A stretch of DNA of 64,000 bases from Nitrospira sp. CG24A (GTDB lineage Bacteria > Nitrospirota > Nitrospiria > Nitrospirales > Nitrospiraceae). Under the pieces are notes generated by a model. It was not told the DNA's origin, searched no databases, and worked only from the letters and a program-made list of their open reading frames with translations. Positions within the stretch are counted from its first letter, which is position 1; the number at the start of each line of letters is the position of its first letter. Position numbers and translations under genes: made by a program. This document shows, one piece after another, positions 3,930 to 57,000 of this stretch. The stretch covers positions 1 through 64,000 of the forward strand of contig NEWT02000020.1 in NCBI GenBank assembly GCA_002869925.2, given 5' to 3'.

Positions 3930-4403
3930 TGAAGTCTTCTCACCAGCCACACCTGAACTTTCAAGAAGGCGTGAATCTCTAAACTCGACCCTTCGGCCCT
4001 CTCGCTAATCCTGCAGGCCGCGCCTGTTCACACCATGATCTAGGCGTGAGCAGAACATTCATGGTCGTCAATGTTAGCGTCGATACACACATTGCCGAGG
4101 CGTGAAGTCTGGCTATTGCGAGAGGGATGTAGTCCTGTGAGATAGAGCTATATAGGACTAGATGGTCCTATGCATAAGAGAACAATGGTCATATCTAAAT
4201 AGGTCTGTAATGTCAGGCATCGTGAGGGCCATTAGGCACTTTCCGATATAGGAATCTCTTATACGCTTAGTAGCGATGCGATGCGTATATTCACGACGAC
4301 GGGAAGCGATGCGAACGGCTATAGCGATCCTGCAATCGTGCGAAGTCTATTGTCTCGTCTTGTTTCGGATTCATATTTCAGAACTTTACAGAGGGGATCC
4401 AGC
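3930..4403. other. Intergenic region upstream of the first NtrC-type activator
   Basis: No gene seen. The stretch is AT-richer than the surroundings toward its right half (4140-4380). An in-frame ATG at 4281 would extend the downstream activator by 41 residues, but these have no family counterpart and no ribosome binding site. I looked for sigma-54 and sigma-28 boxes and found none that fit. Confidence 0.4.
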
Positions 4404-5813
4404 ATGAATGTGTTGTCTATTCTTGTGGTCGAAGACGACGAAGGCATACAGAACTTGCTTCGGCGACTGTTGACTCGGGAGGGCCATCGGGTCACGGTTG
4501 TCGGAAGTGGGCAGGAGGCTCTTCGTGTGGTCCAAGAAATTCCCGTTCATGTACTGATGGCGGATTTGAAACTGCCTGATATCGATGGCGTGGCGGTCCT
4601 CGAGCGTGTCCTCCAGATCGACTCCAAGGTGCTCGGAATTGTGATGAGCGGGTATGGCTCAATCGACTGTGCTGTCAAGGCCATGAAGGCCGGAGCCGTC
4701 GACTTTCTGACAAAACCATTTGAGAACGAAGGCGTCGTTGCCTCAATCAACAAAGCCTTGGAGGTGCAGCGCCGTCGGAATTCCGCACAATTATCACGGA
4801 AGGCCGTCCGGGAGCACTATCGGTTAAAGCAGTTTGTCGGTACGAGTGAACCGATCCGGCGTGTCATCGAGTTTGTGGCGAAGGTCGCAGACTGCGACAG
4901 CACCGTCCTGATCCAAGGAGAGAGTGGAACGGGGAAGGAGTTGGTCGCGCGGATGCTGCATTTCCATGGTGAGACGAAAGACCGGCCGCTCGTTCCGGTC
5001 AATTGTGGCGCGATTCCCGAGAATCTGCTCGAGTCTGAGCTATTCGGACATGAGAAGGGGGCGTTTACCGGTGCAGCACATGCGCGAATTGGCCGTTTCG
5101 AGTTGGCGCATGGCGGGACAATCTTTCTCGATGAAATTGGTGAGTTAAGTCTCGGGTTGCAAGTGAAGTTGCTTCGAGTGCTGCAAGAGAGGTCGTTTGA
5201 ACGAGTCGGAGGCACGAGAACGATCGATGTGGATGTTCGCGTCATTGCGGCGACGAATCAGGATCTCGAGTTGGCCGTACAGCAGAAGCGTTTTCGGGAG
5301 GATCTGTATTATCGCCTGAATGTCATCCCGGTTACCGTTCCACCGCTGAGAGAACGACGAAGCGATATTCCTGAACTCGTACACCATTTCTTGGAGCGAT
5401 TGAATCACGGCAAGCAGATGGCTTCGACCGACTGTTCCACGGATGCCATGGCCCGGTTGATGGACTATCATTGGCCAGGCAATATTCGAGAACTGGAGAA
5501 TATGATTGAACGCCTCGCGGTGCTGAGTCAATCGGGGACGATCGAAGTATCGGATCTGCCAGAGCGTCTCCAGCGCCGGTCGGTCGCGGCTGAACAGATG
5601 ACACCCCATCTGATTAGCTTTAGCGATCAAGGGGTGAACTTGTCCCAAGAGATCGAACAGTTTGAAAATCGATTAATCGTCGGCGCGCTTCGACAGGCCA
5701 ATGGGATTACGAGCAAGGCAGCGCAGTTGCTCCAAGTAAATCGCACAACTCTGGTTGAGAAGATGAAGCGAAAAGGATTTGCCCCGAAGAATCAGGGATG
5801 CCCTGCTTTCTAG
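4404..5813 (+). CDS. Sigma-54-dependent NtrC-family response regulator
   Basis: Transcription activator of 469 residues: receiver domain (1-120) with acidic pocket E10/D11/D12 and phospho-acceptor D54; AAA+ domain (about 145-385) with Walker A GESGTGKE, the sigma-54 contact loop GAFTGA and arginine-finger region; Fis-type helix-turn-helix at the end (SKAAQLLQVNRTTLVEKMKRKG). It would use ATP to open sigma-54 promoters when phosphorylated. The ATG at 4404 was chosen because GAGGGG sits seven bases upstream and the receiver domain begins directly. No histidine kinase is adjacent. The receiver is notably similar to the one fused to FliH in this window (shared KLP-D-DG and KAGA...KPFEN motifs). 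Sigma-54 sites at flgB, fliL and flgF are plausible targets. Confidence 0.9.
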   Translation: MNVLSILVVEDDEGIQNLLRRLLTREGHRVTVVGSGQEALRVVQEIPVHVLMADLKLPDIDGVAVLERVLQIDSKVLGIVMSGYGSIDCAVKAMKAGAVDFLTKPFENEGVVASINKALEVQRRRNSAQLSRKAVREHYRLKQFVGTSEPIRRVIEFVAKVADCDSTVLIQGESGTGKELVARMLHFHGETKDRPLVPVNCGAIPENLLESELFGHEKGAFTGAAHARIGRFELAHGGTIFLDEIGELSLGLQVKLLRVLQERSFERVGGTRTIDVDVRVIAATNQDLELAVQQKRFREDLYYRLNVIPVTVPPLRERRSDIPELVHHFLERLNHGKQMASTDCSTDAMARLMDYHWPGNIRELENMIERLAVLSQSGTIEVSDLPERLQRRSVAAEQMTPHLISFSDQGVNLSQEIEQFENRLIVGALRQANGITSKAAQLLQVNRTTLVEKMKRKGFAPKNQGCPAF

Positions 5814-6097: not shown

Positions 6098-8278
6098 TTG
6101 CTGAACCTGATTGTGTCTATGAGAAGAAGCGTGACATATACTTTGTTGGCCCTGTATGTGTGTGCGCAGAGTGCTGCCTGGCATGTCGCCTGTGCCGCTG
6201 CGCCGCACTCGTCGGAGGCGACACCTCCAGGCTCCAGCCTTGCACTACCTCCAGAAGGAAGTTCGCGAACAGTCTCTCCACGGATCGCATTGCCTGATGA
6301 TGGGCCCATCTATGATCGAACCATGGAGGGGCCTGGCGTCGCACAATTCCAAGAAGCGGTGAAGGCCTTTACCCGTGGGCAGTATGCGGCGGCTCGCGCA
6401 GGATTTTCAGCGCTTGACACACTTGATTCCTCCAGTCCGCTGATCCCTCCCATGAAGGCGTTCTTAGCCGAACTCACCCTGCTTGAACACCCTTCAGACC
6501 ATGCGCGAGGAGAGGCGGTTACGCTCTATCGCGGCATCATTGGCTCATACCCGAAGAATCCCAATGCCTTCCGGGCACACTGGCGGGTCGGTGACTTGTA
6601 TGTGGACATGGGATGGCTCAGAGACGCCGTGACCGCGTATGAATATGCGCTTTCGCGCGAGCTGCCTCGTCATGATGCGGATCGGACATTGCTCGCATTG
6701 GGCGGCGCACTTGGGGAGCTGGGACGATTGGCAGAAGCTGAGCGGGCATTCGGTGTGGTTCGGGAACGCGCGATTGACGATCGTCTTGTCGTGAGGGCCA
6801 CGTTGGATCAGGCCAACGTCCTGTATGCCCAGCAACGCAAGCGAGAGGCATTACCACTGTACGATTTTTTGTATCGGCGTTGGCCAAATACACTGAAATA
6901 CAATCCTGATGCCTTGCAGCAGTATGGCGATGCCCTTTTTGACAATCAGGAGCTGAAAAGAGGCCGTGAGATCGATTTGCTCCTGTTGAACCTCTTTCCG
7001 TCACACCGACATGCGGGAACGGTTCTCATCCGTCTTGGAGACAGCCATAGCCGACTTGGTCTTCGAACACCGGCAGAGCTTTTTTACAACGTCGCTCAGG
7101 CAGAGTATGGAGATACGCCGGCAGCGGTCGTTGCCCGCATGCGCCTAGCACGGGATGAACAGGAAATTGCGGCATCGGCAGGAGAGAGCTTCCTGCGTAA
7201 AAAGGTGGAAGGCATGATTCGAGGGAACGGTCTATCCTATTTGGAGTCATCGGAAGGCGAAAAGCTGTATAAGGCGATCGCTCTCAATCACCAGGGTGAC
7301 ATGCTTGGCAGCGAGGCGCTCGTTCGATTGGCGGAGCACTATGAATTGCGCGGTGACCCACCACGCGCTATCCAGGTGTATCAAGACGTCACTCGTCGGG
7401 CGGGTGTCGTTGCGCATGATCCCTGGCCGTCTGCGGCGGGGTTCCATCTGGCCGCGATCTTAAAACCCCAGTTGGAAACGGCTATCAAGAACAAGAACGA
7501 TGTTCAGGTGCTCACGCTCTTTCATAGTCACGGGCGGGATCCGGAACAACATTATGCCGGGACACAGACATTATTGGAGGTGGCCGACACGCATCGCCGG
7601 CTTGGTTTTTCACCTGAAGCCGTACGACTCTATCAAGCATTGGTTCGCAATCGGAAGGTGGCTTCGCTCCACGAGGCGGCGCTCGCCGGCTTGGGAGAAA
7701 GTTATTTGGACCAGTCTGACCCTGAGGCCGCCAGGAACGTATTTGAAAGTTTCCGGCTTCACTATCCCAAGAGCGCGCGTTCTACGCGAGTCTCGCGAGA
7801 ATTGACGACGGCATTGTTGGAGCAGGGAGACCGTCAAAGTGCCATCCGTATCATGCGGCACTGGACGCGGGCGCATTCCCATGATCCCGCGCATCGTTGG
7901 ATGTATGCGGCCCTTGCGCGGGCGTTGGCGGACGATCAGAAACACGAGGAGGCCGCCGCGGCATTCGAGGAAGCATTGAACAACAACGCACTCAATAGGC
8001 CTCAGGATCTTCGACGGTATGCCGACCTCCTGTTGCAACTGAACAAGCCTGAACGTGCCACGGATCTGTACCGACAGGTACTGAAGTCCAGACCTGATCC
8101 CATGGAGACTGAGTGGGCGCAGGTACAGATCATGCTCAATTCAGGGGGCAAGAACCGTACAGATGGCCGCCCGACGGGCGAGCGTGCGGACGCGGCATTT
8201 CAAGACCCGTTATTCCAACGTGCTGCTGGCGCCATGCAGATAGGTCTCAAGTCGGCCATTGGGGATACAGGGAGATAA
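6098..8278 (+). CDS. Exported TPR-repeat protein
   Basis: A 726-residue protein with a hydrophobic N-terminal segment (about residues 12-30, ending near ACAAP) that looks like a signal peptide, followed by tetratricopeptide-like helical pairs almost throughout (for example WRVGDLYVDMGWLRDAVTAYEYAL and ALAGLGESYLDQSDPEAARNVFESF). TPR arrays are protein-binding scaffolds, so a periplasmic or inner-membrane scaffold is likely; no enzyme motif is visible. A TTG at 6098 behind GAAGGG fits the ribosome binding rule; the ATG at 6119 gives a more classical signal-peptide N-region (MRRS) and is an alternative. The stop is three bases before the histidine kinase start, so it heads an operon with the kinase and its NtrC-type partner. 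Confidence 0.75.
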   Translation: MLNLIVSMRRSVTYTLLALYVCAQSAAWHVACAAAPHSSEATPPGSSLALPPEGSSRTVSPRIALPDDGPIYDRTMEGPGVAQFQEAVKAFTRGQYAAARAGFSALDTLDSSSPLIPPMKAFLAELTLLEHPSDHARGEAVTLYRGIIGSYPKNPNAFRAHWRVGDLYVDMGWLRDAVTAYEYALSRELPRHDADRTLLALGGALGELGRLAEAERAFGVVRERAIDDRLVVRATLDQANVLYAQQRKREALPLYDFLYRRWPNTLKYNPDALQQYGDALFDNQELKRGREIDLLLLNLFPSHRHAGTVLIRLGDSHSRLGLRTPAELFYNVAQAEYGDTPAAVVARMRLARDEQEIAASAGESFLRKKVEGMIRGNGLSYLESSEGEKLYKAIALNHQGDMLGSEALVRLAEHYELRGDPPRAIQVYQDVTRRAGVVAHDPWPSAAGFHLAAILKPQLETAIKNKNDVQVLTLFHSHGRDPEQHYAGTQTLLEVADTHRRLGFSPEAVRLYQALVRNRKVASLHEAALAGLGESYLDQSDPEAARNVFESFRLHYPKSARSTRVSRELTTALLEQGDRQSAIRIMRHWTRAHSHDPAHRWMYAALARALADDQKHEEAAAAFEEALNNNALNRPQDLRRYADLLLQLNKPERATDLYRQVLKSRPDPMETEWAQVQIMLNSGGKNRTDGRPTGERADAAFQDPLFQRAAGAMQIGLKSAIGDTGR

Positions 8279-8282
8279 CCTC

Positions 8283-9587
8283 ATGAATGCACATCAGGCC
8301 TTAGTAACCACCGATAGCGATTTATTGCACCAGGCGTTTCAGAGTTTCGACGATGCCGCCGTGACCTTGCAACAGTCCTATCAGACGTTGACCACTCGAT
8401 TGGAGCAGCTTGATGTCGAACTGGCTGATCGCAACGAAGCACTTGGAAAAAATTTGCGCGTCAATGAAGAACTGCGTGAGCATTTGACGGCGATTGTCGA
8501 GTCCCTTTCGACGGGTTTACTGGTGATGGATACCGAAGGAATAATTACACGGTGTAACCAAGCGGGTGAGCAACTCCTCGGGCTACCGCGTGAGCAGATT
8601 GTCGGCTGCTCCTTAGTCGCCTGTCTCAAGGACGCCCAACTGGACGGTGATGCGTATCCCCTGACGACGCGCCAGGGCGCGGCCGTGTCGCTCTCCCAAC
8701 GTGCCTTGCACACGAGCGAGGGACGTCATGCCGGACGTGTTCTCCTGATTCAGGATGTGACGGCGGTTCGAGAACTGGAGGATCGGCTGCAGCGTCGTAA
8801 TCGGTTGGCGGCCATGGGTGAGATGGTCGGGCGGATTGCTCACGAAATTCGGAATCCCCTTGGCAGTATTGAACTGTTTGCATCGATGTTGCGCCGTGAT
8901 TTGCACGGCCTTCCTTCACTGCGCGGATACGCTGAACATATCTCATCGTCTGTTCACATGATGAATCGTCTCTTGACCAATCTCTTGCTCTATACCAAAC
9001 CCGATTGCTCGCATGGGGAGTGGCATGAGACGGAAGTACTGATGGTCGATGCATTGACGCTGGCGGCCCATGCTGTTGCACAGACCAAGATCGACATTCG
9101 TCTGGATGTGAATCCTCATGCATCTCGGATGTGGTGCGACGCGGGGCAAATGAAACAAGTGCTCTTGAACGTCATTCTCAACAGTATCCATGCGATGTCA
9201 GGTGGCGGAACGCTGACCCTATCGGCAACCCTCACAGAGGAGCAGACGCCAGGAAGGGCGGCGTTTCGTCTTTCGGTCTCAGATACCGGCGTCGGCATTC
9301 CTGCGGCACAGCGATCAAGAATATTCGATCCATTTTTCACCACACGGGACGAAGGGACGGGGCTCGGGTTGGCCATCGTCCATGCGATTGTTGAAGGGCA
9401 TCGGGGACGGATCGACGTGGAGAGCGTGGAAGGGCGCGGTACGACGTTTACGATGGTGTTCCCGCATCCTTGCGAAGAGAGTCGCACCGGGAGGCGAACA
9501 TTGACTGCGCGTGATTGTGGAGGTGAGGCTGACAACCCCATCATGATCGACGCGCACCACTTTATTGAAGAGGAGACCTCTGCATGA
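8283..9587 (+). CDS. PAS-domain histidine kinase (FleS/FlrB-like)
   Basis: Cytoplasmic kinase of 434 residues without membrane segments. A coiled N-terminus is followed by a PAS domain (about 60-160), a HisKA dimerisation helix with phospho-acceptor H187 in AHEIRNPLGS, and a HATPase domain (about 285-400) with the N box NVILNSI, G1 DTGVGIP and G2 GTGLGLA. Soluble PAS kinases next to an NtrC-type regulator inside flagellar loci are typical of FleS/FlrB, which control hook-basal-body genes. ATG 8283 is preferred to TTG 8259 because AGGGAG lies eight bases before it. The last codons overlap the start of the regulator at 9584 by ATGA, so kinase and regulator are a coupled pair. Confidence 0.85.
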   Translation: MNAHQALVTTDSDLLHQAFQSFDDAAVTLQQSYQTLTTRLEQLDVELADRNEALGKNLRVNEELREHLTAIVESLSTGLLVMDTEGIITRCNQAGEQLLGLPREQIVGCSLVACLKDAQLDGDAYPLTTRQGAAVSLSQRALHTSEGRHAGRVLLIQDVTAVRELEDRLQRRNRLAAMGEMVGRIAHEIRNPLGSIELFASMLRRDLHGLPSLRGYAEHISSSVHMMNRLLTNLLLYTKPDCSHGEWHETEVLMVDALTLAAHAVAQTKIDIRLDVNPHASRMWCDAGQMKQVLLNVILNSIHAMSGGGTLTLSATLTEEQTPGRAAFRLSVSDTGVGIPAAQRSRIFDPFFTTRDEGTGLGLAIVHAIVEGHRGRIDVESVEGRGTTFTMVFPHPCEESRTGRRTLTARDCGGEADNPIMIDAHHFIEEETSA

Positions 9588-10990
9588 GCGAACAGGACAC
9601 AGGAGGTCATGTGGCGGATATTCCTGAGCAAGCCGAGCGCGTGTTGATCGTCGATGATGACTCATCCATGAGGACCGCCCTTATGGAGTCTGTCCGTCGT
9701 TTGGGCTTTGACGTGCAAGGTGCGATCGATGGCGTCGATGCCGTGGACCGTGTCGGCCGCTATAAGCCCTGGTTGGTGGTGACCGATCTGAAGATGCCGC
9801 GTCTTGGCGGGTTGGATTTGATCAAAGAGATCAAATGCCGTTCGCCGCATACATTGATGGTGTTGATGACCGCGTATGGGACCGTGGAGACGGCGGTGGA
9901 GGCAATGAAATATGGAGCGAGTGATTATATTCTCAAACCATTTTCCACCGATTTGCTTGAGCGAGTGATTGCCAATCTGAAAGCTCGTGGCGTGGATGCC
10001 TCGGCGCCGCCGTCTGAGCCGATCGATCAGCGATCTATTCTGACGCAAGACCCGGGCATGGTCCGCTTGCTCAGTACGGTAGAAGGGGTCGCCGCAAGTC
10101 AAGCGACTGTTCTCATCAATGGAGAAAGCGGCACCGGGAAAGAATTGCTGGCCCGTTTCATCCATAGCAGAAGCCCCCGTGCGCACCGTCCATTTATCGC
10201 GGTAAATTGTGCGGCCTTGCCGGACGGACTACTGGAAAGCGAATTGTTTGGTCATGAACGGGGAGCGTTCACCGGAGCCATCATGAAGAAACTCGGCAAG
10301 TTCGAGATGGCCCATACCGGCACGTTGCTTCTGGATGAAATCAGTGAAATGAACATGGGTTTACAGGCCAAGTTGCTCCGTGTGATTCAAGAGCGAGAAG
10401 TGGATCGAGTGGGAGGCCGAGAACCTGTCTCAGTCAACATTCGGGTCATTGCTACGACAAACCGGTCGCTTTATCACGAAGTGGAACAGGGACGGTTTCG
10501 GGAAGACTTGTATTATCGTTTGAATGTGTTTCCTATCACCGTGCCTCCGTTGCGGGAGAGGCCCGCCGATATTTCGTTGCTCGCAAGACATTTCGTGACA
10601 GCCTCTGCAGCACGCAATGGGCTCCCGATCCCGATGGTGTCGGCGGAGACATATGCGATGCTTCAGGACAGACGATGGAAAGGAAACGTGCGCGAACTGG
10701 AGAACGTCGTGGAACGTGCTGTGCTGTTGGCCGGAAATGGCCAGATCCTTCCAAGCCACGTGTTATTGGAGTCCGGTAGCCAGCCGGTGATCCCTGCCGG
10801 AATCTCAACGGTGTCACAACCATCCGGCAATGGGTCGCTGTGGGAAATGGAGCGGGACTTGATATTCCAAACTCTGGCGCGGGTGAGGGAGAATCGCACT
10901 CATGCGGCGAAGGAACTGGGGATCAGCATTCGCACGTTGCGGAACAAGCTTCGAGAGTATCGGGAGACCACATGCCGGGCTTCTGCATGA
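9584..10990 (+). CDS. Sigma-54-dependent flagellar regulator (FleR/FlrC-like)
   Basis: NtrC-family activator of 468 residues. Receiver (about 18-135) with DDD at 24-26 and phospho-acceptor D68; AAA+ domain (about 155-390) with Walker A GESGTGKE, GAFTGA loop, and sensor motifs; Fis-like C-terminal helix-turn-helix (THAAKELGISIRTLRNKLREY). It is translationally coupled to the PAS kinase. Its gene lies directly upstream of the flgB operon, whose promoter has a near-consensus sigma-54 site (11111-11126), so flgB and the other sigma-54 sites are its likely targets. Assignment to FleR/FlrC rests on this arrangement rather than on sequence features unique to that subgroup. Confidence 0.88.
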   Translation: MSEQDTGGHVADIPEQAERVLIVDDDSSMRTALMESVRRLGFDVQGAIDGVDAVDRVGRYKPWLVVTDLKMPRLGGLDLIKEIKCRSPHTLMVLMTAYGTVETAVEAMKYGASDYILKPFSTDLLERVIANLKARGVDASAPPSEPIDQRSILTQDPGMVRLLSTVEGVAASQATVLINGESGTGKELLARFIHSRSPRAHRPFIAVNCAALPDGLLESELFGHERGAFTGAIMKKLGKFEMAHTGTLLLDEISEMNMGLQAKLLRVIQEREVDRVGGREPVSVNIRVIATTNRSLYHEVEQGRFREDLYYRLNVFPITVPPLRERPADISLLARHFVTASAARNGLPIPMVSAETYAMLQDRRWKGNVRELENVVERAVLLAGNGQILPSHVLLESGSQPVIPAGISTVSQPSGNGSLWEMERDLIFQTLARVRENRTHAAKELGISIRTLRNKLREYRETTCRASA

Positions 10991-14087: not shown

Positions 14088-15080
14088 ATGGCCACCCAAC
14101 TGAGCGGCGAGCAAAAGGCGGCTATTTTCCTGAAAGCCATTGGAGAAGAGGCCGCTGCGTTGGTGATGAAGGGCCTTGACCCGAAGGAGATCCGTCGATT
14201 GGGAGCTTCCATGCACGCGACGGCGAATATCACCAGAGAAGAGGAATCGATCGTCATTGATGAATTTGAGAAGGCCAGTGCCACCGGTCAGGTGACGTTT
14301 CGCGGAAGCGAATACATCAAAACCATTCTCTCCAAGGCGCTCGGTCCTGAAAAAGCCAACCGTATGCTCGAGTCCATGACCACCAAGGTGTATCCGGGAC
14401 TTGACGCAATGAAATGGGTCGACGCCAAGGCCGTCTCAACCATGATTAGGATCGAGCATCCCCAGACGATCTCTGTGATCCTGGCCCACATGGAGCCGGA
14501 TCAGGCCGGCGCGGTCATGGCCGATTTACCCGAAGCCCTTCGAGCGGATGTCGCCTTGCGCCTCGCTACCATGGAGGACTTGCAGCCAAGCGTGCTTGAA
14601 GAACTCAGTGACGCATTGCAGAATTCACTTGTCGCCAGTACCGGCACTCGCGCGACAAGCGTCGGAGGTGCTGAAGCGATTGCCGATATTTTGACGACCC
14701 TCGACAAAGCCACGGAGGGGAACATCATGTCGAAAATCGCCGAACGCAATCAGCAATTGGCCGATACGATCCGTGGATTGATGTTCGTCTTCGACGATCT
14801 GATTAAGTTGGATGACCGTGGTATGCAAGAGCTCATGAAAGAAGTCAGTAAAGAGGATCTTCCTGTGGCATTGCGAGGAGCGAGTCCTGAAACCAGAGAC
14901 AAGTTCCTGAAAAATATGTCGAGTCGAGCGGCGGAAATGTTGAAAGACGACATGGAATCGAGAGGCCCGGTGAAGGTGGCAGAGGTCGAGAAGGCACAAC
15001 AGAATATCCTCAAGGTCTGCCGAAAGCTGGAAGAGGAAGGGCGGATTGTCGTCGCTGGAGGAGCGGAGGCGATGCTGTAA
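14088..15080 (+). CDS. fliG: Motor switch protein FliG
   Basis: C-ring protein of 330 residues. N-terminal FliF-binding domain, middle domain with the EHPQTI-type segment (RIEHPQTISVILAHMEPDQAG), and C-terminal torque domain with the charged helix (MFVFDDLIKLDDRGMQELMKEV) that meets the stator. Length is standard. The next gene (REC-FliH) starts immediately at the following base. Confidence 0.97.
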   Translation: MATQLSGEQKAAIFLKAIGEEAAALVMKGLDPKEIRRLGASMHATANITREEESIVIDEFEKASATGQVTFRGSEYIKTILSKALGPEKANRMLESMTTKVYPGLDAMKWVDAKAVSTMIRIEHPQTISVILAHMEPDQAGAVMADLPEALRADVALRLATMEDLQPSVLEELSDALQNSLVASTGTRATSVGGAEAIADILTTLDKATEGNIMSKIAERNQQLADTIRGLMFVFDDLIKLDDRGMQELMKEVSKEDLPVALRGASPETRDKFLKNMSSRAAEMLKDDMESRGPVKVAEVEKAQQNILKVCRKLEEEGRIVVAGGAEAML

Positions 15081-16130
15081 ATGGAACGGGCATCAAACGG
15101 TCAGGCGACACTCGCCCAGCCATCCGTCAGTCGCAGCGGTCAACGAGACAGTTCAATACTCGTCGTTGACGATGAGGAGGCGATTCGGGAACTATTGGTG
15201 AAACTGCTGCGGTCGGCAGGGCATCGTGTGCGTGCGGTTGGGTCTGCACGGGAAGCCCATGCGGCGTTAAAAGAGTCTCCTGTTTCGCTCCTCATCACCG
15301 ACGTCAAATTACCGGATCAAGACGGTCTTGCATTGCTCCAACAAGCCTGTGAGCTCGATCACCGTATGATGGGCCTGGTGATGACCGGGTACGGCACGGT
15401 TGATCTCGCAGTTCAGGCGATGAAGGCAGGGGCGGCAGAGTTTCTGATGAAGCCGTTCGAAAACGATGCGTTACAGTTGATTGTGAATCGTCTTCTTGAT
15501 CTCTATCACCTGCGTTCGGAGAATACGGTCCTCAAGCAGGCCGTGATTCGTGCCTCCGGGGTTCGCTGCCGCAGTCTGGCGTTGACCGACTTTGGCACCG
15601 GTGATCGGTTTATCGGTGACCAGGGCCCTTCAGACTACGATCAAGGCATTGCGGAAGGTGAGCGTCGAGCCGATGCACGAGTCGCAACAGCCAGGCTGCA
15701 GGAGCAGAGCTTGTTGGCCAACGCGGTTCGGCGTTTCGATGACACGCGGACAGGATTGTATCAGACCGTCGAAAATGATGTGACGGCGCTGGCCTTCAGT
15801 TTAGCGACCCGTATTCTACGCGAGACGGTGATGGAACGGCAGGATGCGGTCATCACCTTGTTGAAGTCGGCTTTGGCGACGGTTCGTGAAGCGGGGGTTG
15901 TCACCGTGCGAACTCATCCCTCCGATGTCCAGGTCCTCGAATCGGCTCGTGTAGAGTTGTGCCGTGACCGGCCTCCAGATTTTACGTTGCATGTCGAAGG
16001 CGATTCATCGCTCTCCCGGGGGAGTTGTATCGTTCAAACCGCGAACCGACTGATTGATGCCTCGCTAGATCAGCAATTGCTGCGGCTCGGAGAGGTGTTA
16101 CAAAAGCGAGGTCGCCGTGAATCTCGTTGA
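15081..16130 (+). CDS. fliH: Receiver domain-FliH fusion (export ATPase regulator)
   Basis: A 349-residue fusion. Residues 24-140 are a complete receiver domain: acidic pocket D30/D31, phospho-acceptor D74 in LITDVKLP, T102 and K124 all present. Residues 190-345 match the FliH/YscL C-terminal domain: a helical stretch with Gly-spaced repeat (YDQGIAEGERRADARV) followed by the globular part ending in VQTANRLIDASLDQQLLRLGEVL. FliH normally binds and restrains the FliI ATPase and docks it to FliN through its N-terminus; here that N-terminus is replaced by a phospho-switch module. The gene sits exactly between fliG and fliI, where fliH belongs, and no separate fliH exists. It starts at the base after the fliG stop and overlaps fliI by 14 bases. 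The receiver resembles that of the NtrC-type activator at 4404, so it was probably copied from such a gene (inference). Confidence 0.85.
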   Translation: MERASNGQATLAQPSVSRSGQRDSSILVVDDEEAIRELLVKLLRSAGHRVRAVGSAREAHAALKESPVSLLITDVKLPDQDGLALLQQACELDHRMMGLVMTGYGTVDLAVQAMKAGAAEFLMKPFENDALQLIVNRLLDLYHLRSENTVLKQAVIRASGVRCRSLALTDFGTGDRFIGDQGPSDYDQGIAEGERRADARVATARLQEQSLLANAVRRFDDTRTGLYQTVENDVTALAFSLATRILRETVMERQDAVITLLKSALATVREAGVVTVRTHPSDVQVLESARVELCRDRPPDFTLHVEGDSSLSRGSCIVQTANRLIDASLDQQLLRLGEVLQKRGRRESR

Positions 16131-17424
16131 TCTCATTGAACGGACAGATCCGCTGGTGGTCTCAGGCCGTGTGGCGCAGGCCGTGGGGATTGTGATCGAA
16201 GGCTATGGCCCCATGACATCGGTCGGGGAGCTGTGCGACGTCACGCGTGAGGATGGAGAGGGGACTGTCCCGGCTGAAGTGGTGGGGTTTCGCGGGGATC
16301 GTGTGCTGCTGATGCCGCTCGGTGAAATGCGGGGGATCGGTCCCGGAAGCCGGCTGCTCATGAGAGGGCATTGCGCATCGGTCTCAGTCGGCCCGCAGTT
16401 GCTCGGTCGTGTGTTGAATGGACTTGGTGAGCCATTGGATGGGCGCGGCTCTCTCATGACCGAACAGCGATATCCGTTGCATGCCGCGCCGATCAATCCT
16501 TTGAAACGAGCGCGTATCACGCAGCCGCTCGATCTGGGTATCCGGGCGATCAATGCCTGCCTGACATGCGGTCGTGGGCAGAAGGTCGGCATTTTTGCCA
16601 GTTCCGGTGTCGGGAAAAGTGTGTTACTTGGGATGATCAGCCGCTACACCAAAGCCGACGTGAACGTCATTGCTCTCATTGGCGAACGAGGACGTGAAGT
16701 CAATGAATTCCTCGAGCGCGATTTGACCCCTGAGGCGCTCAGCCGCTCGGTGGTGATTGTGGCGACGTCGGACCAGCCACCCTTAGTACGATTACGCGGT
16801 GCGTTCATTGCGACGGCGATTGCAGAGTACTTTCGCGACTGCGGCAGGCAGGTGCTTCTCATGATGGATTCACTGACTCGCCTGGCTCATAGCCAACGCG
16901 AAGTCGGACTCGCGATCGGGGAGCCGCCAACCACAAAGGGGTATACTCCCTCCGTCTTTACCATGTTGCCCAAGCTGTTGGAACGAGTCGGGACCAGTTC
17001 AGGTTCTGGCGCGATTACAGGGCTCTATACTGTGCTCATGGAGAGTGAAGAACTCTCCGATCCCATCGCGGAATCGGTCCGGTCGATCCTGGATGGCCAC
17101 ATTGTGCTCTCGAAGCAGTTGGCCGCGCGCAACCATTTCCCTGCAATCGATCTCCTGAACAGCACCAGCCGCGTCATGAAAGATATCGTGGGGCGGGATC
17201 ACTATGCTGCGATCAGGTCCATGATCGAGCTCCAAGCACGGTATCAACAATCTGAGGATCTCATTCTGCTTGGAGCCTATAAGGCTGGCACCAATGGCGA
17301 CCTCGACAAAGCCGTAAGGGCTCAAGATGGGATCAATGCGTTTCTTCGTCAGGACATTGAGCAATCCGTGTCCATGGGCGCCTCGGTTCAAGACTTGCTC
17401 GCTCTGATGAAGTCGATAGGATGA
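16117..17424 (+). CDS. fliI: Flagellar export ATPase FliI
   Basis: Cytoplasmic ATPase of 435 residues that powers and times substrate entry into the flagellar type III export gate. Walker A ASSGVGKS at 161-168, the ERGREVNEF segment, Walker B (VLLMMDSLTRLAHSQREVGLA), and the GEPPTTKGYTPSVF motif typical of FliI/SctN. GTG start; it overlaps the REC-FliH gene by 14 bases and fliJ by ATGA, so all three are translationally linked. Confidence 0.97.
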   Translation: MNLVDLIERTDPLVVSGRVAQAVGIVIEGYGPMTSVGELCDVTREDGEGTVPAEVVGFRGDRVLLMPLGEMRGIGPGSRLLMRGHCASVSVGPQLLGRVLNGLGEPLDGRGSLMTEQRYPLHAAPINPLKRARITQPLDLGIRAINACLTCGRGQKVGIFASSGVGKSVLLGMISRYTKADVNVIALIGERGREVNEFLERDLTPEALSRSVVIVATSDQPPLVRLRGAFIATAIAEYFRDCGRQVLLMMDSLTRLAHSQREVGLAIGEPPTTKGYTPSVFTMLPKLLERVGTSSGSGAITGLYTVLMESEELSDPIAESVRSILDGHIVLSKQLAARNHFPAIDLLNSTSRVMKDIVGRDHYAAIRSMIELQARYQQSEDLILLGAYKAGTNGDLDKAVRAQDGINAFLRQDIEQSVSMGASVQDLLALMKSIG

Positions 17425-45872: not shown

Positions 45873-48746
45873 TTATGCTGCGGGTCTTTTGACTTCGCGT
45901 TGGGACCGGCTACGCTTTTCAAGAACTTGAACAAGGCGGAGCACCGCTTTTTCAAGCTGTGTATAGATCATCGGACCTTCAACCAGCGTACCGAGCCGCC
46001 CAAGCGCTTCCAATTGTCCGGCGGATAACACAACCTCCGATGCAGAGAGATTGTTGGCAGTTCCTTTCAGCGCGTGAGCTGCCTGCTCGACGGCTGTTTG
46101 ATCCTTCGAGGCCAAAGCCGTGCGGATTCTTTCCAGCATGGTTTCGTAGCGTTCAAGGAATAGCTCAACCAGATCTTCTAATAGCGCCCTATCCCCTCCG
46201 ATGTTTCGTAACGTTGCCGCCACATCGAAGATCACCGATAGCGCCTCAGTGTCCGTTCCATTCTCACGGCGTTCTGCATCGCTGGAAGAGGTAACCTGTG
46301 GATGTACGGGTAGAGGAATCCATCGCTCGAGGACTCCCTTGAGATCGTCCTTGCGTACGGGCTTCGTGAGGTAGTCGTCCATGCCGGCAGCGAGGCAGCG
46401 TTCTCGATCTCCACGCATGGCATTGGCCGTCAAGGCGACGATCGGAATATGGTGTGTTTTGTAAGAATCGGGCGCAGCAGACTCTTGAGCAGTCGCTTCG
46501 CGCTGGCGAAGGAGCTTGGTCGCCTCGAATCCATCGACGACAGGCATCTGGCAATCCATCAGGACTAAGGCATAGGAGCCCTTGGCTAATGCGGCCAACG
46601 CTTCTTGACCGTTTTCGACCACATCCGATTGATAGCCGAGCTTTTCCAGGATACGAATGGTCAGTTTCTGATTGATGAGATTATCTTCCGCGACCAGAAT
46701 GCGGGGCGCCGACTCTATATCCGCGAAGGTGTGTTGAGTAATGAGCGGCGGTGCAGGCACCGTGGCCACTGCGGGTGTTCCCTCATTCACGACCCCTGAT
46801 AGCCCCAATACGGTTCTCAAGCAATTAGAGAGTTGATCGTGTCGGATGGGTTTGGTGAGATAGGCGACGAACCCGGCTTGGCGTGCCAGCTCCGCGTGCC
46901 CTCGCTGAATGAGTGAGGTGAGGATGACAAGACGGACGAGAGATCCGACAGGATGAGCCTTCATCTCCTTGGCAAATTGTAATCCATCCTTACCCGGCAT
47001 CAACATATCAACGATGGCTACATCGTACGAGAGCCCCTTCTCTGCCTGCTGCTCGAGTAGCGCGATGGCTGAGTCTGCATCCTGGGCTTGATCGGCGACC
47101 ATGCCCCATCCCGTGACCAAATGATGGAGAATGATTCTATTCGATTCATTATCGTCCAGGATCAGGACACGGCGTCCGGTCAACTCGGCCGATGGCATGA
47201 TGGCCAGAGAGCACGTCGCTTGTTTGGCGAAGTGTGCGGTGCACCAGAAGGTACTGCCATGCCCCGGCCGGCTGACGATGCCGACGCTGCCGCCCATTTG
47301 CTCGGTGAGCTGCTTTGAAATCGCGAGCCCTAATCCGGTTCCCCCGTATTTTCGTGAGGTGGAGCTGTCGGCCTGGGTAAACGGTTGGAACAGTCGAGCT
47401 TGTGCCTCTGAGGAGATACCGATTCCGCTATCGGTGATTTCGAATCGGACCACCACCGCATCGACGAGGTCTTTCTCGAGGAAGGCTTGAACCGTCACGT
47501 CGCCCTGTTCGGTAAACTTGATGGCATTGCCGACGAAGTTCGTGAGGATCTGACGGAGTCGCCCCGGATCACCACGTAGACCGGTCGGGACGGCCGCATG
47601 CACCAGACCAGTGATTTCCAGTCCTTTCGTCTGTGCCCGCTCCGCAAATTGGCCCAAGACGTCTTCCACCGTCGTACGGAGGTTGAAGTCAATACATTCC
47701 AATTCCAATTTGCCTGCTTCGATCTTGCCGTATTCAAGGATATCGTTGATCAAGTTGAGTAAGGCTTCGCCGCATTGTCGAATGGTTTCGACATAGGATC
47801 GTTGTTCTTCCGAAGGCTCCGTATCCAGCAATAAGTCCGTCATGCCGATGACTCCATTCATCGGCGTCCGTAACTCGTGGCTCACGGTTGCCAGGAATGA
47901 GGCCTTCACGCGAGCGGCTTCTTGTGCTTCCTGAAGCGCTTTGTCCAATTGACAATTGCTGTTGCGAAGATGCTCGGCGGACCGGCGCAGCTCCGCGTGG
48001 GCTGCCTGGATGTCGGTTGTATCGACGGCATAGCCTCGGACCAGCTCATGCGAGGGAACGGGGCAGAAAATCCATGCAAAACTTGCCTGGGATAAGCAGA
48101 CTTCTTCGCCTCGTATCTCACCTCCCGATTCGAGGCAGCGTCGAACGAGCCGAGAAAGTTCACCAGGACACACCGTAGGGAATCCGCTCGCTGTATAGCC
48201 GAATTGCTGCAGCAACACCGTCATCGCGGGATTGGCATAGACAAGATTCGCATCGGAGTCCAATTCGATAATCGGGGAGGGGCTTTCTTCTGCCACGCGC
48301 GCCAGTCGGTCGTAGTCTTGTTGCAGCTCCTTCTCGCGGGAGAGGTCGCGTATCGTCAAGACCCCGCCGGAATCTCCTTCTGTGTCCAGTGGAACAAAGC
48401 TCCATTCAACCGGAAATGTGTCCTGTGTGGAGTCCCTGAGCATCGCATGCGCTGCCTGTACGGAACGACGATTGAGAAGGGATTCCTGAATGCGCGTCGC
48501 GGTGTCGTGGGTGGGCCCAGGGTGCTGTAACCAAACGTCCCGGAGCGGCTTCGATGAGCAGAAATCAATCGAATGTCCCAGGAGGCGAGCAGCTTCTACG
48601 TTCACAGACACAATCTGAAGCTGACTGTTCAGCCGCACGATACCGATAGGGAGTGTATCTAGTATGGCGTGGTTCAGATCGTTCTGAGAGTGTGTTGGTT
48701 TGGAGGTGCCGGATGCTCCTGCGTGAATCTTTTCAGGCTGTTTCAT
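45873..48746 (-). CDS. Hybrid sensor histidine kinase (PAS-PAS-HK-REC-REC-HPt)
   Basis: A 957-residue cytoplasmic (no membrane helix) multi-step phosphorelay protein. Two PAS domains (about 25-140 and 150-250), HisKA with FLATVSHELRTPMNGVIGMTDLLL (about 290), HATPase (about 400-520, DSGIGISSEA, GTGLGLAISKQL), first receiver (about 535-655, LILDDNESN, VAIVDMLMPGKDG), second receiver (about 690-815, LVAEDNLINQKL, LVLMDCQMPVVDGFEA) and a C-terminal HPt domain with phospho-His in AAHALKGTANNLSA. This BarA/ArcB-like layout would pass phosphate to an unlinked regulator. The start overlaps the HD-GYP stop by one base, so both are one operon behind a sigma-28-like promoter. Confidence 0.9.
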   Translation of the reverse strand: MKQPEKIHAGASGTSKPTHSQNDLNHAILDTLPIGIVRLNSQLQIVSVNVEAARLLGHSIDFCSSKPLRDVWLQHPGPTHDTATRIQESLLNRRSVQAAHAMLRDSTQDTFPVEWSFVPLDTEGDSGGVLTIRDLSREKELQQDYDRLARVAEESPSPIIELDSDANLVYANPAMTVLLQQFGYTASGFPTVCPGELSRLVRRCLESGGEIRGEEVCLSQASFAWIFCPVPSHELVRGYAVDTTDIQAAHAELRRSAEHLRNSNCQLDKALQEAQEAARVKASFLATVSHELRTPMNGVIGMTDLLLDTEPSEEQRSYVETIRQCGEALLNLINDILEYGKIEAGKLELECIDFNLRTTVEDVLGQFAERAQTKGLEITGLVHAAVPTGLRGDPGRLRQILTNFVGNAIKFTEQGDVTVQAFLEKDLVDAVVVRFEITDSGIGISSEAQARLFQPFTQADSSTSRKYGGTGLGLAISKQLTEQMGGSVGIVSRPGHGSTFWCTAHFAKQATCSLAIMPSAELTGRRVLILDDNESNRIILHHLVTGWGMVADQAQDADSAIALLEQQAEKGLSYDVAIVDMLMPGKDGLQFAKEMKAHPVGSLVRLVILTSLIQRGHAELARQAGFVAYLTKPIRHDQLSNCLRTVLGLSGVVNEGTPAVATVPAPPLITQHTFADIESAPRILVAEDNLINQKLTIRILEKLGYQSDVVENGQEALAALAKGSYALVLMDCQMPVVDGFEATKLLRQREATAQESAAPDSYKTHHIPIVALTANAMRGDRERCLAAGMDDYLTKPVRKDDLKGVLERWIPLPVHPQVTSSSDAERRENGTDTEALSVIFDVAATLRNIGGDRALLEDLVELFLERYETMLERIRTALASKDQTAVEQAAHALKGTANNLSASEVVLSAGQLEALGRLGTLVEGPMIYTQLEKAVLRLVQVLEKRSRSQREVKRPAA

Positions 48747-50089
48747 CAGGCCGCCTCTTCCTGAACATCGTCAAGAAACATGGCCACATTCACGCGCTCA
48801 TGCAGGGGATCAAGCACCTTCGTGATGGTCCGCGCCTTTTCTCCTTCTCCGAGGGCTCCAAGGTCGACGCGAACCGGCGGGAGATAGGATTCCCCCTGCG
48901 GCCCAGTGATCACTTTGATGACCGGTTTGAGCCGTTGAGTGGGATTCATCTCCACGACCACAGCCTGTTCTCCGGTGTTCAACAGGACCAAACTGCTGAT
49001 CGGATACACGCCTAACGTGCCGATCATGGTTTGGATCATATTTTTTGCATAGAGTCCTGTATCTCCGAGGTGAAACAAGTGCCGAATCGCATCATGCGGC
49101 AGCATTGCCGGACGTCCGCCACGTCGACTCACCAGGCCATCATAGACATCGACCAGGCTGACCAGTTGCCCCAAGACTGAGAGGTTTTCCCCTCTGAGCT
49201 TGTGCGGGAATCCAGTTCCATTGCTGCACTCATGATGTTCCGCGACAATCTGAACGACGGCGTCACGGTTCTCTTGCGCATCCCGTAAGATCGCCAGCCC
49301 GAGGGCTGGATGCTGCTGCATCATGGCGCGCTCTTCCTCCGTGAGGTCGAGGCTTTTACGATACAGATTGCGTGGCAACCGGACATAGCCGATATCGTGG
49401 AGTAATGCGCCGGCACCGAGTACCTCCAGGTCTTTCTCTGGAACCCCGTAGTCATGCGCGACAATGAGCGAAAGGGTACAGACATCGAGTGTGTGTGAGG
49501 CCAATGTGCGATCGAATCGCTTCATCTTTTGGAGAGAAAGGAGACTGAGCATGGAGGTGCGATTCTCCAGTACGCGCGCGAGTACATTGGTGACCACCGT
49601 TCGCACCGTCTCCGTCTGAGGGACGAGCCCTGTCTCTAACGCTTCAAACATACGTTCCATCGAACAGGTCGCTTCTCTATAGGTTTCCTGGGCGGCTGCG
49701 GCCTGTTCCTGTGCGTGTGACGGCAGTGGCGTGCTTTCCTGTGTGAGAGGCGGCTGTGCGGCTCTGACAGGCTCGCGCTCATGGTTCTGAGGAGTCTTTT
49801 CCGGCGGGGGCGACTCTATTTGATGGTTTGCCTGAGGGGCGGTAACTGTTTCTTGCGTGTGTGCCGGCGGAGCTGTGTCTCCGGGCTGGCCAGGCTCCAG
49901 ATCGTGACCCTGCGCGGGATCGATCTTCACTTCCCTGATCCCATGCTGTCGGAGCAGGTCGATGTCGTGCTGATGACGGATAAGGCGTTTGTGGAGGAGG
50001 AAAGGGGTTCGATACCAGGGCTGGTCCATTCCAACGATGAACATCCCCGGTTTTAGTTGATCGATCGGGATCGTTTTCACCTGTTTCAT
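48746..50089 (-). CDS. HD-GYP domain protein (c-di-GMP phosphodiesterase family)
   Basis: A 447-residue protein: DUF3391 N-terminal domain (about 1-60, IPIDQLKPGMFIVGMDQPWYRTPF), a P/Q/E-rich linker (65-135), and an HD-GYP domain (about 175-360). The catalytic HD is at 231-232, but the usual HDIGK reads HDIGY and the GYP loop reads NGTGFP (290-295), so activity is likely altered though not excluded. A C-terminal small domain follows (365-440). Family members cleave c-di-GMP or sense it. First gene of a pair with the hybrid kinase; sigma-28-like promoter 91 bases upstream. Confidence 0.85.
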   Translation of the reverse strand: MKQVKTIPIDQLKPGMFIVGMDQPWYRTPFLLHKRLIRHQHDIDLLRQHGIREVKIDPAQGHDLEPGQPGDTAPPAHTQETVTAPQANHQIESPPPEKTPQNHEREPVRAAQPPLTQESTPLPSHAQEQAAAAQETYREATCSMERMFEALETGLVPQTETVRTVVTNVLARVLENRTSMLSLLSLQKMKRFDRTLASHTLDVCTLSLIVAHDYGVPEKDLEVLGAGALLHDIGYVRLPRNLYRKSLDLTEEERAMMQQHPALGLAILRDAQENRDAVVQIVAEHHECSNGTGFPHKLRGENLSVLGQLVSLVDVYDGLVSRRGGRPAMLPHDAIRHLFHLGDTGLYAKNMIQTMIGTLGVYPISSLVLLNTGEQAVVVEMNPTQRLKPVIKVITGPQGESYLPPVRVDLGALGEGEKARTITKVLDPLHERVNVAMFLDDVQEEAA

Positions 50090-52722: not shown

Positions 52723-54053
52723 CGATGATTTTCCCTGGGATTGCACTGCCGGGGTTCGATAGTTTCGGGAAGAAACCCACCATCGATGCTAATTTCATCG
52801 ACCATGGCCTGGCGTCGCTCAGCGCAGCGGCCAAGGCCGCCGGCCATACGGTCGATCTGATCGATCTCCGTAGGCTAAGAGACTGGACCCATTTTCGCGA
52901 TGAGATCCGGCGGCGTACCACGAAAGTCTGGGCCTTCACCTCGTGGAGTCTCCATTATCCCGATGTCGTCCGTGCGATCAGGATTCTCAAGGAAGAGCGG
53001 GAAGATGCCGTGGTCGTGCTCGGCGGTGTCCATGCCACTATTAAGACGGCACAAGTTATGGCAAACCGGCTCATCGACCACATTATCACGCAAGAGGGTG
53101 AGATCAGCTTTGTCAAATTGCTCGACACGTTTGCAGCAGGAAAGCAGGCCGACCGCCTCATCGTCGGCGAAGGCCCGGTGTTAGACGAGATCCCCTGGGT
53201 GGACCGCGACCTCTTCGATGTGAGCGGCGAATTGGCCACGCCGATGGTGCCGGGTATGCCGACACCGTTTGTCACGACCAATGCCGGACGAGGCTGCCCG
53301 TTCAAATGCAACTTTTGTCAGCCGGCCGAACGGGCTGTATTCGGCAATCGAGTCAAGATGCGGAGCCAGGAAAACGTGATCGGTGAGCTGCGATATCTGA
53401 AAGATCGTTTCAAGTTCAACAGTTGGATGGCGCATGACGATCTGTTCTTCATCAATCACCGCTGGAGCCGCGAATTCTGCGTCCAGTATAAGGCTGCGGG
53501 CTTCACGGAGCCCTACATCTGTCAGATGCGCGCCGATCTGATGTGCCGGTATCCGGACGTCGTCAAGCAGATGGCCGAGTCCGGACTGGCATGGGCGATG
53601 ATCGGGTTCGAAAGCGGGAGCCAACGCATTCTCGATCTGTTCGAGAAAGAAACCACGGTCGAGGAAAATCTGAAGGCGGCGGCCATCTGCAAAGAATACG
53701 GCATCAAGGTCTGGGCCAACGTCATGTTCGGCGCGCCGACGGAAACCAGAGCAGAAGTGATGGAGACCGTCCGTATGGTCTGGAAGATCAAGCCGGACCA
53801 TTTTAGCAGTAGTTACTTTACCCCGACACCAGGCAGTGGTATGGCAGAGGAAGTGGAAAAGAAGGGGTTGACGATGGTGGACCCGTTCAATGGATCCAAC
53901 CGGACTCCGAACGAAGCTAAGATGAAAGACACGGATTACGATTGGCTGACCAAAGCTATTGCCCTTGCCTACGACGGCGGGTCGGAAGAACGACTGATCG
54001 CGCTCGCTCAGCTTCCCACGCAATCACGGGAGGCCTCATGCGCATCGCATTGA
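52713..54053 (+). CDS. B12-binding-type radical SAM protein
   Basis: A 446-residue enzyme. Residues 1-150 resemble the cobalamin-binding fold (PGIALPGFDSFGKKP...LASLSAAAKAAGHTVDLIDL, VVVLGGVHATIKTAQVM), although the DxHxxG cobalamin motif is not visible. The radical SAM core starts at C195 with a normal CX3CX2C cluster motif (GCPFKCNFC). Family members do methylations and other radical chemistry on sugars, lipids and cofactors. ATG 52713 follows GGGAGCG. It overlaps both neighbours, so it belongs to the glycan operon and may alter a sugar or the flagellin itself. Confidence 0.85.
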   Translation: MHVTMIFPGIALPGFDSFGKKPTIDANFIDHGLASLSAAAKAAGHTVDLIDLRRLRDWTHFRDEIRRRTTKVWAFTSWSLHYPDVVRAIRILKEEREDAVVVLGGVHATIKTAQVMANRLIDHIITQEGEISFVKLLDTFAAGKQADRLIVGEGPVLDEIPWVDRDLFDVSGELATPMVPGMPTPFVTTNAGRGCPFKCNFCQPAERAVFGNRVKMRSQENVIGELRYLKDRFKFNSWMAHDDLFFINHRWSREFCVQYKAAGFTEPYICQMRADLMCRYPDVVKQMAESGLAWAMIGFESGSQRILDLFEKETTVEENLKAAAICKEYGIKVWANVMFGAPTETRAEVMETVRMVWKIKPDHFSSSYFTPTPGSGMAEEVEKKGLTMVDPFNGSNRTPNEAKMKDTDYDWLTKAIALAYDGGSEERLIALAQLPTQSREASCASH

Positions 54054-57000
54054 TCAACAGCCCATCCCTTTCAGTTCGTCCGGTCAGTCGTAGTATGGCA
54101 GGGGGTCTTGGCTTCGACGGCAGCGAGGGTATGGTGCTGCCCCCCCTGGACCTGGCCATCATGGCGGCCACGTTGCGTCAGGCAGGCGAGACGGTGGACC
54201 TCATCGACGCTGATCCGCTGGGTCTGGACGCAGCCGCGGTGTACGCCCGATTGGAAGGCCATCATTGGGATTTCGTGATTGGAACTGTGTCGCTCCCGAC
54301 CTTGGAGCAAGACGCGGCCTTCCTTGCTGAACTTCGTCGCCGACACCCGTCCGCGCGAATAGCCGGAAAGACTCTGGTACGGGACCATGGTGTATTGAAA
54401 GCGCTGTTGGAGCGAAGCACAGCCGATTTGGTGATTCATGGCGAAGTCGACCTCACGATCACCGACATCGCCCATGGCCGGAGCACCGGTGGCACCGCTT
54501 GGCTCGATGCCGGTGCGTCGGGCGCCGGACCATCGTTCCAATTCGACGAAGGGTCGCCGGTCGAGGATCTCAATCAGTTGCCGTTTCCCGCCCGCGATCT
54601 GCTTCCGAACGAACAGTACATCTATCCGTTGCTTGGTACCCCCGTCGCGACGTTACAGACAAGCCGGGGCTGTCCCTATCCCTGCGGGTACTATTGTCCG
54701 TACCCGTTAGTTGAGGGCGTGAAATGGCGATCGCAAACGCCAGAACGTATCGTTGCCGAGCTGAAAGACGTGGTTGAGCGGCAGGGTATCACCAAGATCT
54801 ATTTTCGTGATGCAACCTTCACGCTTAACCAGGGGCGTATCGTCAGGCTCTGCGACCTCATTATTGCGTCCGGGTGGCGACTTGAATGGGTGTGCGAGAC
54901 GCGAGTCGATTGTCTCGGCGATGCTGTGCTGGAAAAGATGCGCGCGGCCGGCTGTGTCGGTCTTCTCGTCGGAGTGGAGACGGGCGATGAACAGGTCATG
55001 CATCTACGGGAGGGGAAGAAAGGCCTGACGGTCCCCATGCTGGCCCATTTGCGTGAGTACACATTCCGGCTCGGCATCCGTCTTCATTTCCTTCTGATTG
55101 TCGGACTTCCGCAAGAGACCCGTGAATCCCTCGTTGCCACCTATGACCTGATTCAACGATATAAGCCGGACACCATCGGAGTCACGATCATCACGCCTTA
55201 CCCGGGCACACCCCTTCATACGGAAGGTCTTCGGGAAGGCTGGATTGATTCACAGCAATGGAAAGATTATGGGGGCCACCAGATCCCCATGCATACACCC
55301 AACCTCACGAGGGCCGACATGGAGGCGGGTAAGCGGTTCTTGGAAGAAGGTTTCGCACTTTTACAGAAGCGGCAAGTCGGCGGGCATTCCAAACCCCTGG
55401 AGGCCATGGCGCAGCAACATTATGAACGGCTGTTGCGGTGGGCCTATCGTCTCGACGGACCGGTCGCGCAACTGCGGGACGTGCTCGCGCTGGCGCCTGG
55501 ACTGCCGAAACCAGCCAAGCAGGTGCTATCCGTCGCCTCCAACCCACGAGAAGCACCTTCCCCTGCGCGGTTCGCCTTGTCGGTCGTCATTCCGACCTAT
55601 AACCGGCGCGCCATTTTACGGAAGACGTTGCTGGCCTTCATGTCCCAGACCTGTGCCCCTGAGAAATTCGAGGTGATCGTCGTGGACGACGGATCCACGG
55701 ACGACACCGTTGCGATGGTCCGACAGTTCAGCGCGTCCTTTCCCCTCCGTATCCTCACGGCGGAGCACGCCGGTGCGAATGCGGCCCGCAATCTCGGAAT
55801 TCGAGCCGCTCAAGGACGTGTGGTCGTCATCACGGGCGACGATATGATTCCGGAGCCGTCGTTTCTCGATGCGCATGCGATGTTCCACGAGCGTCATCCA
55901 AGTGAATTGGATGCCATGCTGGGCTTCATCGATTGGTCTCCCGAACTGACTGTCACGCCGTTCATGAAGTTCATTGTCTCGCCGGAAGGGGGCCAGCAGT
56001 TTGCATTTCATGAAGTGCGGGAAGGGAAGGCCGACTTTCGGCTTTTCTACACGAGCAACCTATCGGTGAAGCGAGATCTGCTGCTCAAGCAACCGGTTCT
56101 CTTCGACCCAGACTTTACCTATCCCGCCTATGACGATGTGGAACTGGGATATCGCTTGAGCACCCAAGGTCTGGAATTGCACTACAACGCCATGGCGGTG
56201 ACCTGTCACCATCATGAAATTGCCCTGGCGGGGTTTGTCCAACGGCAGCGCAAGGCCGGGCACATGGCTGTCGTGCTGGCGCGTAAACATCCTGAGCTGA
56301 GCCGTACTCATCTCAAAATCGACGACGCCCTTGCGGTCCGTGATGCTCTTGGAGAAGATCGGATTACCCGGCTGCTTCACGTTGCACGAGAGCTGGAAAA
56401 GCCCGATCTCCAGCAATTGGCGTTGATTCGATCCGGTGCAGAACGGTTCGACCGAACCTATCTCCAACGCGTGCTCTATCCCGTGTATCAGACGCTCTTG
56501 CAGTCTGCCTATGCCTGGGGTATTTGCGAAGCTGTTGAGCAGGGTGCGGGGTCCATCCCGCCCGCCACAACATGCAAGCCGTTGCCCCTTCGTTTCAAGG
56601 CATCGATCATCATTCCCGTATTCAACAAACTCGAGCTGACCCGCCAATGCCTCACCACGTTGGCGTCAATCACCACGATGCCGGAATATGAAGTGATCGT
56701 CGTGGATAATGCCTCGAGCGATGGAACAGCAGAGTTCCTTGCTGAGTTAGGCGGAGACGTTCAGGTGATCAGCAATCCTGAAAACTACGGCTTTGCTGTC
56801 GCGTGTAACCAAGGAGCCAACGCTGCGAGAGGAGAGTTTCTCCTCTTTCTGAACAATGACACGATCCCGACCGACGGTTGGTTGAATGCCCTCGTGGATG
56901 AGGTCGAACGCCACCCCGATGTGGCCGTGGCCGGCAGTAAGCTGCTGTATGAAGACGGGACTATCCAACATGCGGGCGTGGCGTTTTCGCGTACGATGTT

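Follow-up and report, generated by a model that had tools for sequence, protein, structure and literature searches.

A receiver domain fused to FliH in the flagellar cluster of Nitrospira sp. CG24A and its possible role in the control of flagellar export

Introduction

The flagellar cluster of Nitrospira sp. CG24A contains, between fliG and fliI, a gene encoding both a phospho-receiver (REC) domain and FliH, which raises the question of whether flagellar export may be placed under direct two-component control. FliH forms a dimer, contains a long coil and suppresses the ATPase activity of FliI, and in Salmonella its residues W7 and W10 bind FliN and FlhA (PMC9114704). According to the original prediction, made from the sequence of the window (the whole stretch of DNA analysed here, positions 1 to 64,000 of the forward strand of contig NEWT02000020.1), a complete receiver has taken the place of the usual N-terminal docking tail, and the resulting mechanism was not known to be described. 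The architecture, distribution, conservation and origin of this protein are analysed below.

Architecture of the fusion gene

The gene and its immediate neighbours are composed as follows.

14088-15080, + strand: fliG, upstream neighbour (identified by sequence and conserved order)
15081-16130, + strand: REC-FliH fusion gene, a single open frame of 349 aa
15081-15149, + strand: N-terminal tail, residues 1-23
15150-15491, + strand: receiver (REC) domain, residues 24-137
15300-15302, + strand: codon of the phospho-acceptor D74, within the REC domain
15492-15560, + strand: NtrC-type linker helix, residues 138-160
15561-15629, + strand: constrained non-helical segment, residues 161-183
15630-15830, + strand: coil region of FliH, beginning with YxxGxxxG, residues 184-250
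15831-16106, + strand: FliH C-terminal domain of the FliI-binding type, residues 251-342
16117-17424, + strand: fliI, encoding the export ATPase; overlaps the fusion gene

The ATG start codon at 15081 immediately follows the stop codon of fliG (taaATG), while the 3' end, with the stop at 16130, overlaps fliI, which starts at 16117. The predicted union of a complete receiver with FliH is borne out by one uninterrupted frame matching Pfam Response_reg at residues 26-135 (1.4e-24) and Pfam FliH at residues 208-334 (1.7e-17), the latter scoring 64 bits against PF02108, for which the curated cut-off is 24.1. The active-site residues named beforehand (D30/D31, D74, T102 and K124) are all present. 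The original prediction had joined the receiver to the FliH C-terminal domain; this domain is indeed kept, but alignment with unfused FliH indicates that the YxxGxxxG motif and the long coil (about residues 184-250) are kept as well.

The protein shares with other members of the FliH family (PF02108), the stalk and negative regulator of FliI, the position between fliG and fliI, the YxxGxxxG coil, the C-terminal domain and the single copy, and differs from them in that the N-terminal docking tail is exchanged for a receiver and a linker helix. A separate complete fliH elsewhere in the genome, named in advance as evidence against the fusion, was not found, as the PF02108 profile gives a single match in the 3.36 Mb draft (40 contigs). 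By profile, position and copy number the fusion protein is thus a FliH, which would be expected from its family membership to bind and restrain FliI. It is not an NtrC-family transcription factor by its domain content, as only REC and FliH are found by the Pfam scan, the AAA+ sigma-54 domain and the Fis-type HTH being absent, and it retains of such regulators only the NtrC-type receiver and linker.

Unfused relatives open with motifs such as RSKWSKVRS, AQDFARILK or MSKIMKQ, which precede the YxxGxxxG coil by a few dozen residues. The docking motif (W7/W10 in Salmonella; W/F-S-K-I-L-K type) is not recognisable in the fused proteins when aligned by eye, in agreement with the predicted replacement of the tail, and the N-terminal residues 1-23 are weakly conserved (mean 0.31) and lack a conserved tryptophan motif. 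The N-terminus of FliH is poorly conserved in general (PMC2674601), and the docking motif is therefore a variable feature and no strict criterion for FliH. The segment of residues 161-183, in which F171 is found in 62 of 63 fused sequences, might be a remnant of the docking motif or a new one, which is a guess.

Distribution within Nitrospirota

The close relatives found by sequence similarity are Nitrospira MAGs, and 22 of the 32 genomes of the genus encode the fusion. Of these 22, 21 give a full-strength match to FliI, while the ten genomes lacking the fusion also lack FliI (10/10); thus fusion and flagellum occur together in this genus. The exception, G009 (Nitrospira RSF11), retains of FliI no more than residues 306-435, directly 3' of an intact REC-FliH (loci L003 1083-1472 and L032 2221-2610), which is a deletion or a misassembly.

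The wider survey covered a sample of 296 genomes of the phylum Nitrospirota, together with plasmids, to which statements on presence apply. FliH is found in 67 genomes of the same family (as a count of listed rows), eight of them belonging to the genus. Among the 59 family members outside the genus, 44 FliH sequences were read, giving 41 fused and three unfused proteins (G091, G170 and G241, from genera g4 and g6), while the other 15, known by frame length only (344-376 aa), are compatible with the fusion. None of the FliH sequences read from the neighbouring family f2, the other classes and the rest of the phylum carries a receiver, and the unread ones outside the family have, among the matches listed, frames of at most 278 aa, too short for REC and FliH together. 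Among plasmids, no match spanned 80% of the fusion used as query. The fusion is represented in the family by 63 distinct sequences from 63 genomes.

In a tree built from FliF, FliG, the FleR-like regulator and FlgC, all fused genomes form one clade (95/94) to which g4 and g6 are sister, and a single gain of the fusion within the family fits this four-gene species tree.

An error of sequencing or assembly joining two genes, which was to count against the prediction, could be suspected from the draft state of the window genome in 40 contigs. However, the same joined frame recurs in 63 genomes as 63 distinct sequences, including single-contig genomes (e.g. G086, G138 and G172). The error reading is therefore rejected, its probability being negligible, and the fusion is real.

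Selective constraint on the receiver

The predicted active site is largely conserved across the 63 fused relatives. D74 and K124 are invariant (63/63), position 102 is T in 62 sequences and S in one, and position 30 is D in 62 and E in one; position 31 is D in 54, A in seven, G in one and H in one, its loss (9/63) occurring mostly in one group of genus g2. The domain thus has the acidic pair, phospho-acceptor aspartate, T/S and lysine of the Response_reg family, with the second acidic residue lost in 9/63. As computed from 26 close pairs, dN/dS is 0.10 for the receiver, 0.09 for the linker helix, 0.11 for the segment 161-183, 0.15 for the coil, 0.11 for the FliH C-terminal domain and 0.40 for the N-terminal tail. 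The receiver is under purifying selection equal to that of the FliH domain itself. Since D74 and K124 are invariant and the dN/dS of the receiver is about 0.10, the receiver is strongly constrained and probably still phosphorylatable. Some of the receivers lacking D31 may be impaired, and in the corresponding lineages the domain may serve for docking or dimerisation alone.

The receiver and linker might in general have become a phosphorylation-independent head for dimerisation and docking at the C-ring or FlhA, replacing the lost N-terminal motif. Something must dock FliH once the ancestral motif is unrecognisable, and the loss of D31 in nine sequences points the same way. The valine patch of FliN, taken as a marker of altered docking, is identical in fused and unfused family members, and CheY, itself a receiver protein, is another binding partner of FliN. 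However, pure docking heads usually lose the residues which are here invariant (D74 and K124) or conservatively kept (T102, T or S throughout), and we consider this explanation unlikely.

Origin of the receiver

Two NtrC-type regulators are encoded upstream in the same cluster, separated by a TPR protein and a PAS kinase.

4281-5813, + strand: NtrC-type sigma-54 activator (Pfam), probable donor lineage of the receiver, with its place kept across the class
6098-8278, + strand: TPR protein of 726 aa, separating NtrC-type regulator and PAS kinase in almost every cluster of the class that was compared
8259-9587, + strand: PAS histidine kinase of the flagellar cluster (Pfam HisKA, HATPase_c and PAS; conserved position), candidate phosphodonor
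9584-10990, + strand: FlrC/FleR-like NtrC-type regulator (Pfam), partner of the PAS kinase, rejected as donor of the receiver

These genes are followed by flgB-flgC-fliE-fliF-fliG-fliH-fliI, an order kept across the class in 20 compared regions, except that the TPR gene is undetected in one f2 genome.

The FliH receiver shares 51% identity with the receiver of the 4281 regulator, while the next best among the own-genome receivers compared shares 35%. In a tree of 76 receivers, based on few columns and including part of the 84 receivers of the genome, the receivers from FliH fall into a single group (89/90), which joins those of the 4281 type (91/88). The 9584 type was rejected as the source by the AU test (p 0.0095), while placement inside or beside the 4281-type clade is compatible with the data in both cases (p 0.144). 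The receiver is accordingly closest to the activator named in the original prediction (then placed at 4404), and the receiver phylogeny for which it called rejects the second regulator as the source. The motif LRxENxxL(K/R)xxV after the receiver is common to most FliH and 4281-type members and is absent from the 9584 type; in the fusion protein its heptad pattern, supported by column counts, is L141-L144-N148-L151-V155. As the receiver groups with those of the 4281 type and the linker helix is shared, the donor is probably the cluster's own NtrC-type regulator gene (4281-5813), and, the linker motif being common to both groups, the piece transferred probably comprised the receiver and the linker helix to about residue 157.

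The heptads of the REC-AAA linker (LRQENHLLRKAV) are lost from the 4281-type regulators in the genus of the window and in genera g7 and g11, where the FliH copy keeps them. In the other fused genera they are kept in both proteins.

The closest solved structures are those of DctD (aligned over residues 25-159) and NtrC1 (25-153), both of which are REC-linker modules. Modules of this type form a dimer with a coiled-coil linker, the packing of which changes upon phosphorylation. The fusion protein has in common with these sigma-54 activators the sequence over the receiver and linker helix (25-159) and the active-site residues, and differs from them in lacking an AAA+ or DNA-binding domain, its output being FliH. 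An AlphaFold2 model built from seven sequences has a mean pLDDT of 51 and is thus useful for secondary structure only; it predicts a helix at residues 185-248 and leaves the segment 161-183 unstructured.

Candidate kinases

At positions chosen by general knowledge of receiver-kinase contacts, the FliH receiver is closer to the 4281 than to the 9584 regulator (15.5 vs 7.1), while covariation of these positions within the same genome gives no clear signal (15.5 vs 14.5). The PAS kinase at 8259 (placed at 8283 in the original prediction) does not appear to be the obvious donor, because at the contact positions the FliH receiver is more similar to the 4281 regulator than to the 9584 regulator, the partner of this kinase. 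It is the only kinase kept adjacent to 4281. FlrB and FleS are PAS kinases of the same role, which are active only when the MS ring-rotor-export complex is present (PMC7064773).

The FliH receiver might act instead on transcription, either competing for the kinase of the 4281 regulator as a phosphate sink or pairing with the receiver and linker of this regulator, so that unassembled FliH would restrain the flagellar genes. Such feedback would agree with the shared origin of the two receivers, with the similarity of their kinase-contact positions and with the dependence of related kinases on the export complex (PMC7064773). However, the 4281 regulator of the window's genus lacks the linker heptads, so that mixed coiled coils are less likely in this genus. 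The receiver is, moreover, no free protein but part of FliH, and the matching kinase is hypothetical; this alternative is regarded as quite improbable.

A further candidate phosphodonor is an Hpt-bearing hybrid kinase on the opposite strand, listed here with its neighbour and with a separate long frame of the window.

45873-48746, - strand: hybrid kinase with PAS, HisKA, two receivers and Hpt
48746-50089, - strand: neighbouring DUF3391-HD protein of the c-di-GMP phosphodiesterase type
53942-58210, + strand: frame of 1422 aa combining radical SAM, two glycosyltransferase family 2 stretches and TPR repeats

Proposed mechanism

Trees and alignments support the view that the N-terminal docking tail was displaced by a receiver and linker helix most likely copied once, within the family, from the cluster's NtrC-type regulator. 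Beyond this architecture, we infer every step of the following scheme. A REC-linker dimer unit would lie on that end of the FliH2 stalk which faces the C-ring, the stalk being the part that tethers FliI and restrains its ATPase activity. If a histidine kinase phosphorylates D74, the dimer head would be rearranged, and the rearranged head would change either the docking of FliH at the C-ring or FlhA or the restraint of FliI, resulting in post-translational two-component control of flagellar export. By analogy with DctD and NtrC1, we give an even chance to the view that a dimer switch of this type has been moved onto the ATPase stalk, with phosphorylation controlling docking or restraint. The full reading, that the built-in receiver directly switches flagellar type III export and was fixed in the flagellated members of the family after its deepest sampled split, is given a rough probability of 0.45.

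The FlgSR, FlrBC and FleSR systems, which read flagellar assembly (PMC7064773), likewise tie two-component signalling to the export base, and a similar pair is present in this cluster; their output is transcription, whereas here a receiver forms part of the export apparatus itself. No paper on FliH with a receiver or response regulator was found in the open-access literature, consistent with the claim that the mechanism was not known to be described. The architecture is a novel variant of FliH and constitutes no new class of system.

Biological significance

Direct control of flagellar export apart from transcription is poorly understood. The fusion appears to be a clear case of a signalling module moved from a regulator gene to a structural gene of the same cluster, and, throughout the flagellated members of this nitrifier-containing family that carry it, the receiver has been kept on FliH, where it may switch export directly.
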